Shown here: positions 1 through 13,691 of the stretch, in pieces
Layout: each line of letters starts with the position of its first letter
Position numbering within the stretch: the stretch's first letter is position 1
Assembly (NCBI GenBank): GCA_945952065.1
Contig: CAMFGY010000007.1
Location: 124,001 to 188,000, forward strand
Length of the DNA: 64,000 nucleotides
Source of the DNA: an uncultured Burkholderiales bacterium
Lineage (GTDB): Bacteria > Pseudomonadota > Gammaproteobacteria > Burkholderiales > Burkholderiaceae_C
Direction of reading: 5' to 3'
Notes under the pieces: model-generated
The model's database searches: none
Seen by the model: only the letters and a program-made list of their open reading frames with translations
What the model was told of the DNA's origin: nothing
Translations under genes and position numbers: made by a program

Positions 1-453
1 CGAGAGGTCCCAGTTGTCGGTGAACTGCATGCCGGGCACCACGCCACGGTCATCGGTAAAGCCGCTGACCATCAAAATCTCATCCCTTTGGGCCAGATAG
101 GTACGCAGCGGTTTGGCCAAGGCCGCGAGCAGGGCGCGTCCATCGGCCAGCAATTGATCGGAGCCGGTGGCAAAGAGCACGGCGCTGTTGATGCCAATGC
201 GCCCTTCTACCAAGGTGATGCGGCCATCGGCCAGCGGGCCGGCCAGTGCGCGTTCCAAGGCTTCGCGGCGGCTTTGTTCGGCTTTGCGCTGCTGCATTTC
301 GGCTTGCAATTGATGGGCAAGGTCCAGCTGCCCCACCAGGGCAGCCGCCAGCACCAACACGAAAGCGCCCAAGACGCCGGCCATCAAGTCACCAAAAGCA
401 GCCCAAGCATGGGCGGCCGTGCCTTCGTGCTCCAGCTCCAGCTGATCATCCAT
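1..453 (-). CDS. OmpA-family protein with MotB-like membrane anchor (partial at window edge)
   Basis: Reads off the left edge, so only about 150 N-terminal residues are visible. A short acidic N-terminus is followed by one hydrophobic segment (about residues 17-41). It contains GDLMAGVLGAFV, with Asp22 near its start, as in the ion-binding aspartate region of MotB, ExbD and ZorB anchors. A charged linker follows, and from about residue 80 an OmpA/MotB-like peptidoglycan-binding fold begins (IGINSAVLFATGSDQL, then GFTDDRG). The ATG at 451-453 overlaps the stop of the DUF802 gene (ATGGATGA), so the two are translationally coupled. Family knowledge: such proteins anchor motor stators to the cell wall. 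The role here is unknown. The missing C-terminus lies outside the window. Confidence 0.8.
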   Translation of the reverse strand, partial: MDDQLELEHEGTAAHAWAAFGDLMAGVLGAFVLVLAAALVGQLDLAHQLQAEMQQRKAEQSRREALERALAGPLADGRITLVEGRIGINSAVLFATGSDQLLADGRALLAALAKPLRTYLAQRDEILMVSGFTDDRGVVPGMQFTDNWDLS

Positions 454-2776
454 GGGGGGCCGCTCCTTGCAGTGCATCCAGGATTTGCTTTTGCGAGCCC
501 AGGCAGAGCTCGATCACCTCGCGTGCTTGGGCCACGTAATAGCCCAGTTGCTCGTCGCTGCGGTTGATGCTGGCGGCCAGGCGTTCTTCCAGCGCCGCCA
601 AATGCTGTTGCAGCTGAAGGTTGCTCTGTTGGAACTGCTCAATGGCGGCGCCAAATCCATCGCCCACGCTGGCGATATCGGCCGCGCTGGCCGCCAAATG
701 GGTGGCGGCATCGGCCAGCGAGTGGCCCGAGGCTTCGGCCAGCGCGGTGAAGCGCTGCCCCACGGTCTCAATCTGATGGGCCGAGCGGTCCACCAGGGCG
801 TCAATCGCGCGGCGTTGTTCGCCAGCGGCTTGCTGCAGCGAGCTGAGCAGGGTGGACACCGTGCTCATCAGTTCGCTTCGTTCCAACAGGGCCGCGCGAT
901 CTTGCGCTTGGCTTTGGGCCAGTTGCTCACGCAAAGCCGCCACCACTTCCACCGCCGCGCGGGGCGCTGCACTGGCGGCTTGCAAAATTTCGCCCGCCTC
1001 GCTCAGGGTCTTTTGGGAACAGACTTCGGCTTGAGCGACCAAGCTGCGGGTGTTGGTCAAGAGTTCGTCGGCGAGCGCTTGTTGTTGCTGCAGCTGTGCG
1101 GCCCCGGCTGCCGTCAGCTCGCTGCGCCAAGCGGCAAGGCGCGCCGCTTCATCGGCTTCTTGCGCGGATTGCAATTGCTGGAAGGCCGCGCCGATGGCCG
1201 CAATGCTGGCCTGCATTTGCTCTGCGGACAAGCGGCTGATCTCGCTGAGCGCTTGGTTGGCGCGCGCATCGCTGTCTTGCAGCATTTGCACAGCCTGGGC
1301 CCGCTGATGGGCCAACGCAGCTTCGAGGGCCTCGCGCTGCTGCTTCAAGGCCGCGGCATCGGCCGAGGCCTGAGCATGGCTTTGCTGGTCGCGAGCATCC
1401 AGGGCTGCGAGCTGACGCTCTTGGGCGCGCGAAACCTGTGCCAGCAGGTCTTGCATTTGGGCCGCGAACTGCTGTGCGGCTTGGCTGAGCAAATCGCCGG
1501 CGCCGGCTTGTTGCGCCTGCAGCGCTTGCAGCTGATCTTGCAGGGCCGCCCAGCGGGCTTGATCGGCTTCGGCCTGGGCCGCTTGCTGGCGGCTGACCAT
1601 GGCGTCCAAGGTCGCCAACATCGCTTGCGCATCGGATGCCCAACGCTGAGCCTGCGCCTGCGAGCTCCGCTCCGCGGCCGCGGCCGCGTCCTCCAAGAAA
1701 CGCTGCGACATGGCATGTTGCGCGGCCAGCGCCTCGGTCTGCTGCTGAGCGGCGAGTGCTTGTTGATGCTGCATGCGCTCGGCCCCGGCTTCAAATTGGG
1801 CGGCCAGTCCGCTCAATTGCTCGCTGACCACCTGGCCCACGCGCTCATGCAAAGCCCCGGCTTCGCTGGCAATGCCGGCCATCGCGGATTTCGCGGACGT
1901 CTGCATGGCCGCGCCGGCTTCTTTTGCCGCGTCATTCAGGCTGCTGCGCAACGTGGCATCCACACTTTGGGCCAAGGCCAGATAGGCCTTGCTGGTTTCG
2001 TCGTGAAACTGGCGGTTTTGAGCGCTCAGCTGTTCGGCAATTTGGCCGGTGAACTGCTGCAGCAGGGCGGCGAGCTCCACCTGCTTTTGATGTTCGCGGG
2101 CCAGCTGTGCGGCAGCGGCGGCCTCTTGTTCTTTTGCTTGCTTGGCGGCCGAGGTCAGCGGTCGCAGCCAGCCCTGCAAGGCCGCGTCCAGCAGGGCGCC
2201 AGCGGCTGCGCGCTCGCGCCGGGCCAGAGCAACCATCAGCCCCAACATGGCCGAACCCGCCACCCCGGCCACGCTGGCACTGAAGGCCAAGCCCAGACCT
2301 TGGATGGGGGCGCCCAAGGCAGTGCGCAGGGCCGCCAAATCCGCCGAAGCGCCCAAGGCGCTGGCAGTGCTGCTCAAGGTGATCACCAGGCCAATAAAGG
2401 TCCCCAGCATGCCCAGCAACACCAGCAGACCCGCGATGGCCGGTGCCAGGGCCAAGCCCGGCAAGGCCACCCGCATGCCTTGCAAGCGCAGCTGAACGGC
2501 GCCGCGTAAAGCGGTCGGCACGCTGAGCAGCCAATCGTCGGGCGCGCCCTCGCTGTCAGCCTTGTTTTCAGTGGCTGTGGCCAAGCCGCGGCTGTCGCGC
2601 CGAAAAGCAGCCAACTCCAAAGCGGCCATCAAAAAGAACAGCGCAATCACCACCGCCATGAGCAGGGCGACCGGGTGATTTTTGGCTGCGGCCCAGCCTG
2701 CCCCGGCGATGCCGAGCAATCCGGCCGCCAGGGCTACGGGGTAGAGGGCGTTGAGTGAGCGAAGGGATGGTTTCAT
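446..2776 (-). CDS. DUF802 protein: MotA/ExbB/ZorA-like membrane domain plus very long coiled coil
   Basis: 776 residues from the ATG at 2776, which overlaps the stop of the DUF3348 gene as ATGA; the frame stays open upstream but that part lies inside DUF3348. Predicted membrane segments lie near residues 11-30, 37-57, 104-134 and 155-185. The third contains LGMLGTFIGLV and the fourth GLAFSASVAGVAGSAMLG, the spacing and polar residues (Thr126, Ser166/Ser168) typical of MotA/TolQ/ExbB-type proton channels. Residues from about 210 to 760 are Ala/Gln/Glu-rich heptad-like sequence, predicted as one long coiled coil, presumably cytoplasmic. The pairing with an OmpA-anchored partner mirrors MotA-MotB and ZorA-ZorB. 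DUF802 itself has no assigned function. Motor function is my inference. Confidence 0.8.
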   Translation of the reverse strand: MKPSLRSLNALYPVALAAGLLGIAGAGWAAAKNHPVALLMAVVIALFFLMAALELAAFRRDSRGLATATENKADSEGAPDDWLLSVPTALRGAVQLRLQGMRVALPGLALAPAIAGLLVLLGMLGTFIGLVITLSSTASALGASADLAALRTALGAPIQGLGLAFSASVAGVAGSAMLGLMVALARRERAAAGALLDAALQGWLRPLTSAAKQAKEQEAAAAAQLAREHQKQVELAALLQQFTGQIAEQLSAQNRQFHDETSKAYLALAQSVDATLRSSLNDAAKEAGAAMQTSAKSAMAGIASEAGALHERVGQVVSEQLSGLAAQFEAGAERMQHQQALAAQQQTEALAAQHAMSQRFLEDAAAAAERSSQAQAQRWASDAQAMLATLDAMVSRQQAAQAEADQARWAALQDQLQALQAQQAGAGDLLSQAAQQFAAQMQDLLAQVSRAQERQLAALDARDQQSHAQASADAAALKQQREALEAALAHQRAQAVQMLQDSDARANQALSEISRLSAEQMQASIAAIGAAFQQLQSAQEADEAARLAAWRSELTAAGAAQLQQQQALADELLTNTRSLVAQAEVCSQKTLSEAGEILQAASAAPRAAVEVVAALREQLAQSQAQDRAALLERSELMSTVSTLLSSLQQAAGEQRRAIDALVDRSAHQIETVGQRFTALAEASGHSLADAATHLAASAADIASVGDGFGAAIEQFQQSNLQLQQHLAALEERLAASINRSDEQLGYYVAQAREVIELCLGSQKQILDALQGAAPHG

Positions 2777-3477
2777 GCGGGTTCTGTGGGAGTGTTCAAG
2801 GCCTCGATCAGGCCCAACACCGGTTGAAGCTTTTGGTCCAGCGCTGCTTGCAACAAGCGCTCGACATCGGTGTTCAGGTGGGCGCGCCAATGCAAGGGAT
2901 CAGCGCTGAAGTGCTTGTGCGCCCGCATCTCCAGCAAGGCAGACATTGCAGTCAAAGCGCGCGACTGCGGCGCTGCGAGCGCGCGTTCCATGGTTTCGTC
3001 CAGCAAAGCGAGCCGGCCGAGCGCGTCCGAAGCACGGCTCAAACGCGCACGCAGCTGGCCCCGCAAAGTGCTGAGACGGCTCTCGATCACGCGCTCTTGC
3101 AAACTGAAGTGCTGCAAATAGGGCGCCAATAGGTTTTTGAAGAGCGCATCTTTCTCGGCCGCCTGGGCGTCCTGAAAGGGCACATCTGGAAAGGCTTTGA
3201 AGCTCTCTGTGAGCTCGGCGTGCACGCGTGCGAGTTCCGCCTTTGCCCAAGATGAGGCCTCCACGCGGACTGAGGGCTGGCTGGCTTTGCCCACCGGCGT
3301 GGCCAAGACCTGGGAGAGCTCGATCGCTTGCGCCCAGCCCAACCATGCGCCCAGGCGTTGGCTCGCGGGCGGCGTGTTAGCCAATGTGGCCGACGACGCA
3401 GCACGCCATTGCTGCAGCAAGCTGCTCAATGACTCCGGGCGTAGCAATGCCGGATTGGGCTTTGAAAGGGTTTGCAT
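2773..3477 (-). CDS. DUF3348 domain protein
   Basis: 234 residues, no signal peptide or membrane segment, mostly helical and charged. The N-terminus (MQTLSKPNPALLRPESL) and the C-terminal stretch around DPLHWRAHLNTDVERLL fit the DUF3348 family as I recall it. It is the first gene of the cluster and its stop overlaps the start of the DUF802 gene by four bases. In Burkholderiales and Xanthomonadales DUF3348, DUF802 and OmpA genes are usual neighbours, often with a DUF2894 gene, which would lie off the left edge. A cytoplasmic accessory subunit of the putative motor is a reasonable guess. No enzymatic motif is visible. Confidence 0.8.
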   Translation of the reverse strand: MQTLSKPNPALLRPESLSSLLQQWRAASSATLANTPPASQRLGAWLGWAQAIELSQVLATPVGKASQPSVRVEASSWAKAELARVHAELTESFKAFPDVPFQDAQAAEKDALFKNLLAPYLQHFSLQERVIESRLSTLRGQLRARLSRASDALGRLALLDETMERALAAPQSRALTAMSALLEMRAHKHFSADPLHWRAHLNTDVERLLQAALDQKLQPVLGLIEALNTPTEPA

Positions 3478-3742: not shown

Positions 3743-4645
3743 TTAGGCCAGCTTGGACTTCAAAAAGCTCACCGTTCGTGCCCACGCCAGTTTCGCGGCT
3801 TCGGCGTCATAGCGTGGCGTGGTGTCGTTGTTGAAGCCGTGTTGCACGCCTGGGTAGACATGGGCTTCATAGCTCAGGCCAGCTGCTTTCAGGGCGGCCT
3901 CATATCCGGGCCATCCGGCGTTGATCCGCTCGTCTTGACCGGCGTAATGAATCAGGAGCGGCGCCTTGATCTTGGCGACTTCGGTCGCCGGCGGTTGGCC
4001 GCCATAAAACGGGACGGCGGCAGCCAAACTGGGGATCTGGGTGGCCAGATAGTTGGCGATGCCGCCTCCAAAGCAAAAACCGATTGCGCCAACACGGCCA
4101 GTGCTTTCGGATGAGGCTTGCAAGCCTTCAGTGGCAGCGACGAAGTCCGCACGGGTTTTGTTGGCGTCGAGCTTGGCAAACAGGGCTCGGGCTTGGTCTT
4201 CATCGCCCGGATAGCCGCCCAAGGGAGCGAGCGCGTCTGGCGCGTAGGCCAAAAAACCTTCCAAAGCGACCCGGCGTGTGATGTCCTCGATATGAGGATT
4301 CAAGCCGCGGTTTTCATGCACCACCAACACGGCAGGCAAACGGCCTTGCGCCTTGGCTGGACGGGCCCAATAGCCCGTCACTTCACCGTAGCCCAGTGGG
4401 GAGGCAAAGCTGTGGCGCCGAGTGTGCAGTCGCGGGTCATCGGGCTTGATCTGCTGAGCTTGCGCAAATTGAGGACTGAGGCTGGCCAGCAAAGCGCTCG
4501 CCGCAGCGGCGTTGCCCGCATAGCGGCTGGCTTGCTCCAAAAAGCCGCGGCGACTGAGATCCCCGTGCACATAGCGGTCAAAGAGTTGCAGCACTTCCGG
4601 CTGAAAGTCATGGCTGGTCAAACGCGGGCTTGGCATCGTTGGCAC
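3743..4645 (-). CDS. Dienelactone hydrolase family protein, Tat-exported
   Basis: 300 residues. Alpha/beta-hydrolase of the dienelactone hydrolase (carboxymethylenebutenolidase) family. The nucleophile is Cys191 in GFCFGG, the acid Asp238 in AGQDER, and the base His269 in VQHGF; Glu111 in VVHENRGL matches the glutamate that orients the nucleophile. This is the cysteine triad of the family rather than a serine esterase. The N-terminus has a twin-arginine signal (LSRRGFLEQ, residues 30-38) followed by an alanine-rich hydrophobic stretch ending near AQAQQ, so the enzyme is probably exported folded to the periplasm (YghX-like). An SD-like AGGAG precedes the ATG. Its natural substrate is unknown, and no aromatic catabolism genes are nearby. 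Confidence 0.88.
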   Translation of the reverse strand: MPTMPSPRLTSHDFQPEVLQLFDRYVHGDLSRRGFLEQASRYAGNAAAASALLASLSPQFAQAQQIKPDDPRLHTRRHSFASPLGYGEVTGYWARPAKAQGRLPAVLVVHENRGLNPHIEDITRRVALEGFLAYAPDALAPLGGYPGDEDQARALFAKLDANKTRADFVAATEGLQASSESTGRVGAIGFCFGGGIANYLATQIPSLAAAVPFYGGQPPATEVAKIKAPLLIHYAGQDERINAGWPGYEAALKAAGLSYEAHVYPGVQHGFNNDTTPRYDAEAAKLAWARTVSFLKSKLA

Positions 4646-5580: not shown

Positions 5581-7023
5581 ATGAGCCAAGCCGTTCACGC
5601 CAATTACATCAACGCCGAATGGGTGCAAGGCCCCAGCCAGCGCAGCAATATCAACCCATCTGACACCCGGGATGTGGTGGGGCTTTTCACTCAGGCCGAT
5701 GAGCAGCAAGTGGACCAGGCGATTCAAGCCGCGCACACCGCCGCCCCTGCCTGGGCGCTGAGCAATCCGCAACAAAGAGCAGATGCCCTGGACAAGATCG
5801 GAACCGAGATCCTGGCGCGCAAGGATGAGTTGGGCGAGTTGCTCTCCCGCGAAGAAGGCAAAACGCGGCCCGAGGGCATCGGCGAATTCGCCCGCGCCGG
5901 CGCCATCTTCAAGTTCTTTGCTCAAGAAGCCTTACGTTTGCGTGGCGACAAACTCGCCTCAGTGCGGCCGGGGCTGGAGATTGAAGTGACGCGTGAGCCC
6001 ATCGGCGTGGTGGGCCTGATCACACCCTGGAACTTCCCGGCAGCCATTCCCGCTTGGAAGATTGCGCCAGCACTGGCCTATGGCAATGCCGTGGTGTTCA
6101 AACCGGCCGAATTGGTGCCGGCCTCGGCCTGGGCCCTCAGCGAAATCATCAGCCGTGCGGGCCTGCCCCCAGGCGTTTTCAATTTGGTGATGGGCCCGGG
6201 CTCGGTGGTCGGTCAGGCGTTTTTGAACGATGCTCGCGTGGACGGCATCAGCTTCACCGGCTCGGCCGGCACTGGCGCGCGCATTGCGCAGGCCGCCGTT
6301 CAGCGCGGTGCCAAGTTCCAGTTGGAGATGGGCGGCAAGAACCCTTGCGTGGTCTTGGACGATGCCGACCTGGACACGGCTGTGAACTGCGTGGTGCAAA
6401 GCGCTTTTTACTCGACCGGCCAACGTTGCACCGCGGCCTCGCGCATCATTGTTCAAAAAGACATTTACGCCGAGTTTCTGGCGCGCCTGAGTGCCGCCAC
6501 CCAGAGCCTGCGCGTGGGCCATGCCCTGGCGGCTGACACCCAAATCGGCCCGGTGGTGGATGAGAGCCAGCTGGCGCAAGACCTGCGCTACATCGCCATA
6601 GCCAAGGCCGAGGGCGCACGCCACATCTGCGGCGGCGAGCAAGTCAAGGGCGACACGCCGGGCCACTTCCTGCGCCCTGCTTTGTTTGCCGATTGCGACA
6701 ACCGCATGCAGCATTGCCGAGAAGAGATTTTTGGCCCGGTAGCCAGCGTGATCCCGGCCGATAACTATGAGCATGCGCTGAGTCTGGCCAACGACACGCC
6801 TTTTGGCTTGTCCAGCGGCATTTGCACCCGCTCGCTCAAACATGCCACGCATTTCAAGCGTCATGCGCAAGCTGGCATGGTGATGGTGAATGTGCCCACC
6901 GCCGGGGTGGACTACCACGTGCCATTTGGCGGCCGCAAAGCCTCCAGCATGGGCTCGCGCGAGCAAGGCAGCTATGCCGCCGAGTTTTTCACCACCGTCA
7001 AAACCAGCTATTTGCAGGCCTGA
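5581..7023 (+). CDS. NAD(P)-dependent aldehyde dehydrogenase, ketoglutarate-semialdehyde type
   Basis: 480 residues, normal for the ALDH superfamily. Catalytic residues are in place: Asn151 in ITPWNFP, Lys174 in VFKPAE, Glu249 in LEMGGKNP and the nucleophile Cys283 in GQRCTAAS; FTGSAGTG (225-232) is the nucleotide-binding loop. The overall sequence most resembles alpha-ketoglutaric semialdehyde (2,5-dioxovalerate) dehydrogenases, which finish oxidative pentose, sugar-acid and hydroxyproline breakdown by forming 2-oxoglutarate. That assignment is inference, since no upstream pathway dehydratases are present. A palindromic operator lies just upstream and the lipoprotein peptidase gene starts 6 bases after the stop, possibly co-transcribed. 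Confidence 0.85.
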   Translation: MSQAVHANYINAEWVQGPSQRSNINPSDTRDVVGLFTQADEQQVDQAIQAAHTAAPAWALSNPQQRADALDKIGTEILARKDELGELLSREEGKTRPEGIGEFARAGAIFKFFAQEALRLRGDKLASVRPGLEIEVTREPIGVVGLITPWNFPAAIPAWKIAPALAYGNAVVFKPAELVPASAWALSEIISRAGLPPGVFNLVMGPGSVVGQAFLNDARVDGISFTGSAGTGARIAQAAVQRGAKFQLEMGGKNPCVVLDDADLDTAVNCVVQSAFYSTGQRCTAASRIIVQKDIYAEFLARLSAATQSLRVGHALAADTQIGPVVDESQLAQDLRYIAIAKAEGARHICGGEQVKGDTPGHFLRPALFADCDNRMQHCREEIFGPVASVIPADNYEHALSLANDTPFGLSSGICTRSLKHATHFKRHAQAGMVMVNVPTAGVDYHVPFGGRKASSMGSREQGSYAAEFFTTVKTSYLQA

Positions 7024-7029
7024 ACGCTC

Positions 7030-7947
7030 ATGATGCCAACACGCCCCAGCCCAGCCTATGCGAGTCTGCTCACGGCCGCGGCACTTTTGTTGAGTGCCTG
7101 CGGCAGCACCCTGAAAGTGCCGGTGCCGGCCGAAGGCTCGGTTGATCAGATCTTGAGCCGCAAACATCGCTGCAGCGACAGCCTGAGCCTGCGCTCACAA
7201 GCGTTGAGCGCGCAGCAAGAAGCCGGCATTTGCACCGAACTCGCCCAAGTGGAACAGCGCTTTCACCAGGTCTTCAAGACCCAAGGCCGGCCAGTCAAGG
7301 GCGATCTGAATCACTCGCTGCGCGCCAATATCTACGCCTCCAACGAAGACTTCAGTCGCTATGCCGGCCAGCATTTCAATATGCCTACCGACAACGGCGG
7401 CATGTATCTGGAAGGCCTGCCCGACCAGCCGGGCAACCAGGCGGAGTTCATTGCGAATCAACGCAAGGACGGCAGCGTGCGCAATCTGGCGCATGAATAT
7501 GTGCACTACCTGGATGGCCGTTTCAATTTGCACGGCGATTTCTGCGCGGTCTTGCATGACTCCCATTCGCCGCCGGAGAACTGCGCCCGCCCCGCCCCGC
7601 TGACGCCCTACCTGGTCTGGTGGACCGAGGGGGTGGCCGAGTACATCGCCCATGGCGACAAGCTCAGCGCGCGTCAGCGCGAAGCCGCAGCCGCCCAAAC
7701 CTTTGCGCTCAGCCAGTTGTTTGATACGGGCTATGAAGCCAATACCGGCGAAGCTCGGGTCTACAGCTGGGGCTATTTGGCAGTTCGTTTCATGATGGAG
7801 CGGCATCGCCCCGAGATCGAACAAATGCTCAGCCTGACTCGCGTGGGCGACTATCCTCGCTACCAGGCCCTGGTGCGGCAATGGGGCACGCGCTTCGACG
7901 CCGAGTTTGCCGCCTGGCTGAAAAGTCTCAGTGCTGTGGCGAACTGA
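7030..7947 (+). CDS. Collagenase-like (M9-type) zinc metallopeptidase lipoprotein
   Basis: 305 residues. A lipoprotein signal ends in LLSAC with Cys24 as the lipidated residue. The catalytic motif is HEYVHYLDGRF (His155-Glu156-x-x-His159), followed about 40 residues later by WWTEGVAEYIA, where Glu200/Glu204 would supply the third zinc ligand. HEYxHYLDGRF and EGxAEY are the signatures of clostridial and Vibrio collagenases (family M9). Here only a compact catalytic region is present, without the activator, PKD or collagen-binding domains of true collagenases. It is probably an outer-membrane-anchored peptidase of unknown substrate. No clear ribosome-binding site precedes the ATGATG start, in line with coupling to the preceding gene. 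Confidence 0.78.
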   Translation: MMPTRPSPAYASLLTAAALLLSACGSTLKVPVPAEGSVDQILSRKHRCSDSLSLRSQALSAQQEAGICTELAQVEQRFHQVFKTQGRPVKGDLNHSLRANIYASNEDFSRYAGQHFNMPTDNGGMYLEGLPDQPGNQAEFIANQRKDGSVRNLAHEYVHYLDGRFNLHGDFCAVLHDSHSPPENCARPAPLTPYLVWWTEGVAEYIAHGDKLSARQREAAAAQTFALSQLFDTGYEANTGEARVYSWGYLAVRFMMERHRPEIEQMLSLTRVGDYPRYQALVRQWGTRFDAEFAAWLKSLSAVAN

Positions 7948-12021: not shown

Positions 12022-13062
12022 TCAAGCGCGCCGGGGCGAGGCCGAGCGCAACGCTTGTTGGCCTTGCGCCACCAGCGACTCCATCAGCAAACTGCTGTTG
12101 AGCGGATGTTCGGCATGCCGCGCGGCCCGGCGCAAGGCTGCGTCCCATTGATGCAAGGGTTCGGCCCACTTCGGCGCGGGCAAGGCTTCGGCCGGGAAGT
12201 ACACCGGCGCGGCCCCATGGGCGCGGCGAATCAAGTCGTGGCAGAGCCGTTGCAGCGCATCGATGGCGCGCGGCTGCGGCCAGTCGGCCAAGGCCTGGGC
12301 CTCGCCGCGAGCCAGCCGCTGGGGCAACTGCTGCCACGCGGCGGCGCGCAAGCCAGCTTCAAACCAGTCGCGAGCTTCCTGCGGCCGCCCGCCCGCAGCA
12401 TCCAGCAAGATGTCGGCGCCCTCCACGCCCTGCTGTTTCAGCCAAGCCAAGGCGGCTTCGCGCTGCGGCAGGCCCAGGGGCAGCGGTTGGCAACGGCTGC
12501 GTATCGTGGGCAACAAGGCCTGCGGCGCCGTGCTGGCCAGCACAAAGCGCAAGACGCCGGCAGGCTCCTCCAAGGTCTTCAGCAGCGCATTGGCCGCCAC
12601 CGTGTTCAAGGCTTCGGCCGGGTAAACCACCACCACCTTGGCACGGCCGCGCGCCGAGGTGCCTTGGGCGAAACCCAGCATGGCGCGTACGGCGTCGATC
12701 TTGATTTCACGGCTGGGCTTGGTCTTGCTGGCCTTGGGCTCGCCGTCGCGCCCGGTCTCGGCCTCCGTGCCCCAGCCCAGTTGCTCGCGCAAGGCTTCGG
12801 GCAGCAGCAACTGAAAGTCGGGGTGGGTGTGCGACAAAAACAAATGGCAGCTGGCGCATTCGCCACAAGCACTGGCATCGGCCTTGGGGCTCTCACACAA
12901 CCAAGCCTGCGCCAGCAACAAAGCCAGATCGAATTGGCCCACACCCGCGGGCCCTTGCACCAGCAGTGCATGCGAGCGCGCTTGAGCCAGGGCTTCACGC
13001 AAGGGCTGTTCCAGCCAGGGCAAGGGCTGCACCAGCGGTGTGTCGGCCGCCGCGCTCACCAC
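12022..13062 (-). CDS. holB: DNA polymerase III subunit delta' (clamp loader)
   Basis: 346 residues. Delta' is the rigid stator of the clamp-loader complex. The N-terminal AAA+ fold has a degenerate P-loop, [11 protein letters not shown] (residues 38-47), with Gln where Lys would bind phosphate; this fits the ATPase-dead state known for bacterial delta'. A zinc module follows (Cys56, Cys66, Cys69, Cys72 in [10 protein letters not shown]). [25 protein letters not shown] is the sensor/box region, and RSRCQPL a family signature. The start overlaps the end of tmk by 7 bases, and pilZ follows, the standard betaproteobacterial order. Confidence 0.93.
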
Positions 13063-13691
13063 CCTCTGGCCTCCATCACGGCTTCAATCTGCGCGGCCAC
13101 TTCGGCCACGCTCAGGCTGGCGTCGATGCGCACAAAACGGGCGGGCGCGGCCGCGGCACGCGCGGCATATCCAGCGCGCACCCGCGCAAAAAAGGCCAAG
13201 TCTTGAGCCTCGAAGCGGTCAGCCTCGCGCGCCGCCGCGCGCCGTTGGGCCGCGATCGCTGGGTCCAGGTCAAACCACAGGGTCAGGTCCGGTTGACGCT
13301 GGCCTTGCACCCATTGCTCCAGGGTGCTGAGCACTGTCAGGTCCATGCCTCGGCCATGGCCTTGATAGGCAAAAGAGGCGTCGGTGAAACGATCACACAA
13401 AACGGTTTGCCCCGCGGCCAGGGCTGGCTCGATCAAGGTTTGCAAATGATCACGGCGACCGGCGAAGACCAGCAGCAACTCGGTCAAGCTATCCATGGAC
13501 TGGTGCAAGAACAAGCCGCGCAAGGTCTCGGCCAAGGGCGTGCCACCGGGCTCGCGGGTGTTGAGCACCGTGGCGCCACGGGCCTTCAAGCGTGCCGTCA
13601 AGGCCTCGATATGGGTTGACTTGCCGGCCCCGTCTATGCCTTCAAAACTGATGAATCTGCCTGCCACGACTGCTTTCGATGGCGGCCTCAA
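13056..13691 (-). CDS. tmk: Thymidylate kinase
   Basis: Phosphorylates dTMP to dTDP. A P-loop ([11 protein letters not shown], residues 16-26), the DR(F/Y/H) motif in [17 protein letters not shown] and a lid region around [11 protein letters not shown] are present. The frame opens with a TTG at 13691 that overlaps the mltG stop as TTGA. An alternative is the GTG at 13667, which would give the more usual start [10 protein letters not shown]. Neither has a strong Shine-Dalgarno sequence, which fits translational coupling to mltG. It is followed by holB with a 7-base overlap. Confidence 0.93.

Follow-up and report, generated by a model that had tools for sequence, protein, structure and literature searches.

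A predicted complete Zorya type III system of an uncultured Burkholderiales bacterium, with a conserved motor and a type-specific ZorA tail tip

The window analysed here is a stretch of 64,000 nucleotides from an uncultured Burkholderiales bacterium (assembly GCA_945952065.1, contig CAMFGY010000007.1, positions 124,001 to 188,000 of the forward strand). Its positions 1-3477 hold part of a four-gene cluster which, judged by its sequence, is almost certainly a complete Zorya type III anti-phage system; the remainder lies on the same contig beyond the window (coordinates there are prefixed L001). All four proteins matched the PADLOC type III models, with E values of 7.9e-170 for ZorA3 (565 bits), 1.2e-90 for ZorB3 (301 bits), 2.6e-37 for the DUF3348 protein (127 bits) and 1.1e-21 for the DUF2894 protein (76 bits). 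According to the available text of PMC8565338, Zorya type III was defined in 2021 as ZorA and ZorB flanked by DUF3348 and DUF2894 genes, and was found 6,401 times in the survey reported there; in our cluster ZorA and ZorB are flanked by these same two genes. A type III system from Stenotrophomonas nitritireducens significantly lowered plaquing of at least one phage when placed in Escherichia coli (PMC8565338), and type III is also described in the introduction of PMC11890865, where the ZorA5B2 complexes of types I and II were solved. The initial annotation had presented the cluster as an undescribed motor, for which defence was only one possibility. The first of these statements is rejected, since the DUF3348-ZorA-ZorB-DUF2894 set had already been named Zorya type III, and the second was too cautious, because the type III system of a relative was published to block phage (PMC8565338). 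Its proposal that DUF3348 and DUF2894 are partners of the motor agrees with the membership of both in the type III set, and the DUF2894 gene that it guessed off the edge was found there. The features of the cluster are as follows.

2773-3477, minus strand: DUF3348 protein, 234 amino acids; PF11828 at 90.4 bits (cut-off 25), PDLC00658 at 127.2 bits
446-2776, minus strand: ZorA3, 776 amino acids from an ATG overlapping the DUF3348 stop; four membrane segments and a 561-residue tail
2177-2476, minus strand: ZorA3 motor core, residues 101-200, with LGMLGTFIGL and SVAGVAGS; aligns on the solved ZorA 8VVN_C
977-2176, minus strand: shaft of the ZorA3 tail (residues 201-600), variable in length and with its lowest conservation at 376-525
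446-976, minus strand: ZorA3 distal tail tip, residues 601-776, kept among ZorA3 proteins (RSDEQLGYYVAQAREVI)
1-453, minus strand: ZorB3, first 151 of 215 amino acids (remainder at L001:9806-10000); PDLC00651 at 300.8 bits, PF00691
388-390, minus strand: ZorB Asp22 codon; this residue is expected to bind the ion and is D in 38/38 aligned ZorB3 proteins
L001:9806-10453: full gene of the OmpA protein (ZorB3), 215 amino acids; PF00691 at 63.8 bits when read from the upstream ATG
L001:9252-9809: DUF2894 gene, just past the window edge

The genes overlap by 4 bases at DUF3348/ZorA (ATGA), by 8 bases at ZorA/ZorB and, outside the window, by 4 bases at ZorB/DUF2894 (GTGA), as expected for a single operon. 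The two junctions inside the window had already been read as overlapping. As for nomenclature, ZorF is DUF3348 and ZorG is DUF2894 in PMC8565338 and PMC11890865, while PADLOC-DB v2 swaps the names (its ZorG3 is DUF3348), and the gene pair is also spelled "zorBC" in PMC8565338. A Caballeronia plasmid is annotated with DUF3348, DUF802, OmpA family and DUF2894 in this order, the motor system not being named.

The similarity of the membrane part to solved Zorya motors was detected from both subunits. Thus, residues 1-200 of ZorA gave best PADLOC matches of 5.1e-8 among the ZorA1 models and 1.4e-4 among the ZorA2 models, and the NCBIfam model ZorA_1 matched ZorA at 5.9e-5. When a profile of 35 ZorA3 sequences, that of the window included, was compared with PDB, the best match was the type I ZorA chain 8VVN_C, with an E value of 3.4e-9 over the whole chain and of 3.9e-5 for the motor-core stretch, in which LGMLGTF aligns with LGVIGTF. 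For its part, a profile of the ZorB3 N terminus (24 proteins, including that of the window) retrieved 8VVN_B (6.9e-6) and 8QYD_F (2.8e-4), the sole two PDB chains below an E value of 0.4, whereas the full ZorB3 profile gave a MotB chain as its best match (2.9e-19). Counted by hand on the printed alignment, Asp22 corresponds to Asp24 of 8VVN_B and Asp26 of 8QYD_F. The latter chain was labelled only "Membrane protein" in the search output; we take 8QYD to be a ZorAB entry and its chain F a ZorB. The type I ZorAB structure is 8VVN (PMC11890865), and the same source reports that defence by types I and II requires Asp24 of ZorB, the ZorA tail and the binding of peptidoglycan. The profile searches therefore did reveal ZorA similarity, and the earlier view of the cluster as a MotAB/ZorAB-type motor, with ZorA/ZorB as its nearest relatives, stands.

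The details of the two membrane proteins were in agreement with this assignment. Hydropathy placed four N-terminal membrane segments in ZorA, at residues 8-26 (the weakest), 35-53, 114-132 and 167-185, as had been described, and T126, S168 and S175 were present in 35/35 aligned ZorA3 proteins. ZorB showed one membrane segment (23-41) with Asp22 directly before it, followed by an OmpA domain (PF00691), again as first described; the residue numbers given for Thr126 and Asp22 were also correct. Besides D22, residues T133, D134, L150, R154, R192, R196 and R197 of ZorB were kept in 38/38 aligned ZorB3 proteins. The putative peptidoglycan-binding residues among them were equated with published positions by motif reading rather than by alignment to ZorB I; the OmpA domain may grip peptidoglycan.

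The model PDLC00647 (ZorA3, 565 bits) covered residues 51-809 of an 814-residue reading of ZorA starting from a TTG at 2890. Behind the membrane part, the tail (residues 216-776) contains two prolines and would measure about 84 nm if it formed one helix. The earlier estimate for a continuous helix was about 80 nm; with Pro605 in the tail of 561 residues, a single unbroken helix is doubtful. Across 67 loci the length of ZorA ranged from 602 to 1250 amino acids, with start codons picked by rule. Conservation was not uniform along the protein. In the 29 loci represented in all four alignments, the median pairwise identity was 67% for the motor core (101-200) and 51% for the tip (601-776; 406 pairs in both cases), compared with 30% for the shaft (331-560; 405 pairs), 33.5% for DUF3348 and 33% for DUF2894 (406 pairs each). 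The last 177 residues of ZorA matched four PADLOC ZorA3 models (1e-48 to 1.3e-62) and, weakly, one ZorA1 model (4.6e-4), and no ZorA2 model was matched at an E value of 0.01. Read from these alignments, ZorA3 is a conserved motor followed by a variable shaft and a conserved, type III-specific tip; such a combination of a common motor and a tip particular to the type would be expected if the tip received type-specific partners.

ZorA had been labelled a DUF802 protein. The Pfam model PF05650 did not match it, the Pfam scan assigned it to no family, and the model had no match anywhere in this genome or in the control genomes, so that DUF802 is rejected as a domain of this ZorA. Since PF05650 does match 24 of the 35 related ZorA3 proteins, the label is valid by relationship only.

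The two flanking genes were associated with the motor. Among 300 genomes of the order, ZorB3 (E value up to 1e-40), DUF3348 and DUF2894 (each up to 1e-6) were each detected in 16, and these were the same 16 genomes; the three genes lay within 5.5 kb in 15 of them and on two contigs in the remaining one (G254). A scan of bacterial genomes, limited to the 80 best of 139 candidate stretches, yielded 75 loci. tblastn with the window proteins detected all four genes in 57 of them, with order and strand identical in 57/57; the remaining 18 gave no match for one or two of the genes, some of these loci being at contig ends and some probably being too divergent for a single query. From the co-occurrence in the same genomes and the constant order, DUF3348 and DUF2894 are therefore tied to this motor. 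Within the genus, the ZorA3 model matched 11 of 18 genomes, of which 8 are real (>200 bits) and 3, at 19-21 bits, are taken as chance coiled coil. ZorB3 was also present on 27 of 72,556 plasmid records (E value 1e-40).

In a ZorB3 tree of 72 rows, the window copy had Paucibacter copies as its neighbours, within a 27-row group of Sphaerotilaceae and unclassified Burkholderiales. Exceptions to the taxonomic order of the tree, such as a Roseateles copy (L108) placed beside Rhizobacter, hint at some transfer; that copy has a long branch and its placement is unsure. BLAST identity to the full-length Paucibacter copies was about 92-94% for ZorB, about 70% for ZorA, about 61-62% for DUF2894 and 50-55% for DUF3348.

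The DUF3348 protein was predicted as all-helical with long helices (predicted local distance difference test, pLDDT, 89.6; predicted template modelling score, pTM, 0.84), and the DUF2894 protein as helical, the global confidence being low (pLDDT 79.9, pTM 0.41). The DUF2894 proteins are basic, with a median isoelectric point of 10.4 (n=63), a net positive charge in 57/63 and positive last 40 residues in 62/63. Because the DUF3348 proteins are mostly not basic (see below), DUF2894 appears from its composition to be the better candidate for contact with nucleic acid. The DUF3348 protein of the window, slightly basic itself, deviates at strongly conserved positions, having Glu for Gln128, Ala for Glu212 and Lys for Arg216.

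Taken together, we consider it probable that the cluster encodes a Zorya type III motor for defence, with DUF3348 and DUF2894 docked at the tip of its tail and acting on nucleic acid. ZorA3 and ZorB3 would assemble in the inner membrane into a ZorA5B2-like motor driven by ions, the OmpA domain of ZorB gripping the peptidoglycan. Phage entry would disturb the envelope, and this disturbance, sensed through ZorB, would open the ion path past Asp22; the ion flow would turn ZorA and its long tail in the cytoplasm, passing the signal to the effectors. The conserved distal tip of ZorA would dock the helical-bundle DUF3348 and the basic DUF2894, and DUF2894 would take the assembly to nucleic acid, so that the phage would be stopped near its site of entry. 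In this scheme, assembly and rotation in type III, tip docking and nucleic-acid binding are inferred, and envelope sensing, ion passage and tail signalling are proposed by analogy. A more specific, nuclease-free version, in which DUF2894 sits on the tip via a DUF3348 adaptor, catches the phage genome and winds or blocks it mechanically with no cutting, seems unlikely.

Several observations weigh against the proposal of a defence motor with docked effectors. The 35-sequence ZorA3 profile also retrieved a designed three-helix bundle (1e-6) and apolipoprotein A-IV (1.3e-5), and since unrelated helical proteins score too, part of the 8VVN_C score reflects tail composition; a smaller profile of 8 ZorA3 sequences found no ZorA chain in PDB. 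The conserved tip may serve the bundling of the pentamer and not docking. As regards nucleic acid, basic charge is weak evidence for binding by DUF2894, only 23 of 64 DUF3348 proteins have a net positive charge, the Pfam family HTH_20 gave a weak match in 10/63 DUF2894 proteins (best 0.0008), and fold comparison returned generic helix bundles only for both DUF proteins. The genomic context showed no defence island: PADLOC gave no match better than 3.9e-4 among the 8 scanned neighbours of the window copy, that one being a non-Zorya model, and no recurrent defence family was detected among 135 neighbours of 35 other loci. Finally, the ZorB3 tree largely tracks taxonomy by eye, which suits a resident function equally well as defence.

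Other readings of the same genes have to be considered. The motor might deliver a nuclease, DUF3348 or DUF2894 being a cryptic one or recruiting one from the host, as could be supposed from types I and II with their ZorD and nickase ZorE (PMC11890865); this is possible but doubtful. A search for Pfam nuclease families at an E value of 0.1 in 64 DUF3348 and 63 DUF2894 proteins gave a single match, to Exonuc_VII_L (0.078) in one DUF3348 protein, and by eye no obvious metal-binding or catalytic set was recognised among the residues kept in at least 85% of the sequences of either family. In PDB, DUF3348 had no sequence relative at an E value of 5, while for DUF2894 three weak matches were returned (best 0.055), and both proteins are predicted to be helical throughout. 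A rather unlikely alternative is abortive infection by ion leakage, in which a ZorAB channel would depolarise the cell and DUF3348 and DUF2894 would only gate it. The PADLOC authors do propose that ZorF and ZorG regulate ZorAB, and cite abortive infection by a proton channel (PMC8565338), but such leakage leaves unexplained why a tip some 400 residues away from the membrane is conserved and why DUF2894 is basic, and types I and II need the tail and have effectors that act on DNA (PMC11890865).

The cluster could also be a resident rotary motor of the envelope in its normal host, the phage protection observed from a plasmid being a by-product. The taxonomic order of the ZorB3 tree would fit such a role, as would the metabolic neighbours of the window copy, the mixed neighbours of the 35 other loci and the lack of ZorB3 in 50,697 phage records at an E value of 1e-20. 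Its distribution is patchy, however (8/18 genomes in the genus, 16/300 in the order), and phage protection has been published for a relative (PMC8565338); we regard this reading as very improbable.

The 8 scanned neighbours of the window copy encode, by Pfam, GcvP, GcvH, GcvT, an amidohydrolase, a dienelactone hydrolase, a receiver domain, an aldehyde dehydrogenase and an M9 peptidase, and no ZorC plus ZorD or ZorE effector was found among them. The neighbours of the other loci (at most two per side, at 35 loci hand-picked from the 75) were read with a simple rule based on G+C content at third codon positions (GC3), not with a gene finder, and proteins of more than 900 amino acids were dropped. 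These 135 proteins matched 29 PADLOC families at 1e-10, frames of DUF3348 and DUF2894 having also entered these matches. Among the 25 families listed, the DrmC models occurred in 2 members and the others in 1, including DinG, dGTPase, PDC-M05A, a GajB-like helicase, a phospholipase effector and AbiLii. The Pfam contents (116 families, 25 of them listed) were mixed. The survey for defence islands that the initial annotation had suggested thus revealed none, either in the 8 neighbours of the window copy or in the 135 elsewhere.

In Paucibacter the four genes form a cassette of about 4.2-4.4 kb, bounded approximately by the start of DUF3348 and the stop of DUF2894, that has differing flanks and is twice inverted beside the same gene. 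Conservation of the cassette flanks was 5% of flank bases on average (median, 1%; 10 pairs from 5 genomes), and that of an amidohydrolase core-gene control was 15% (median, 0%; 15 pairs from 6 genomes). The flanks of this single control are poorly conserved too; judged by the medians, a mobile element is not favoured, and none is claimed. One genome (G001) was excluded from the cassette set, as its Zorya copy is split inside ZorA over two contigs (L002, L047). No tRNA was detected at the 8 loci examined.

Some individual junctions may be recorded. In G009 (L051) the cassette lies between dienelactone hydrolase paralogues (6701-7603 and 12333-13226) that are 91% identical, and in the window a single dienelactone hydrolase (3743-4645) stands beside the cassette, whose orientation relative to the hydrolase is opposite to that in G009. 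The cassettes of G003 and G008 adjoin the same HAD-like gene in opposite orientations (L049:6576-7505, L050:11828-12535). In G001 (L047:7580-8614) the DUF2894 end of the cassette abuts, within one base, homology to the truD region of G003. On the Caballeronia plasmid an IS5 family transposase (L143:1718-2671) is directly upstream of DUF3348.

A motor-type defence system was thus recognised from sequence alone, the kind of system being already known. What is new here is the co-occurrence of ZorB3, DUF3348 and DUF2894 (16/300), the conservation of the tail tip and the basic nature of DUF2894. The remaining interest is in the effector step: types I and II use nucleases for it, and no nuclease was recognised in DUF3348 or DUF2894. 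The linkage of the four genes, together with the tip and the charge of DUF2894, offers concrete targets for dissecting this step.

To our knowledge MotA lacks a long tail. The MotAB and PomAB flagellar stators share the OmpA domain of their B subunit with ZorB3 of the window, whose A subunit, unlike MotA, carries such a tail; its 8 scanned neighbours are not flagellar genes. With Zorya types I and II the window system has in common the motor core, the Asp/Thr ion site, an OmpA-type anchor and a long cytoplasmic tail, the tip of which differs from theirs as described above, and it carries DUF3348 and DUF2894 where those types have ZorC/ZorD or ZorE. Compared with the published Zorya type III, it has the same four families in the same order and strand, with overlapping genes, and it represents a divergent type III subgroup, its ZorB3 score being the lowest of the 16 in the order (300 versus 345-390 bits).

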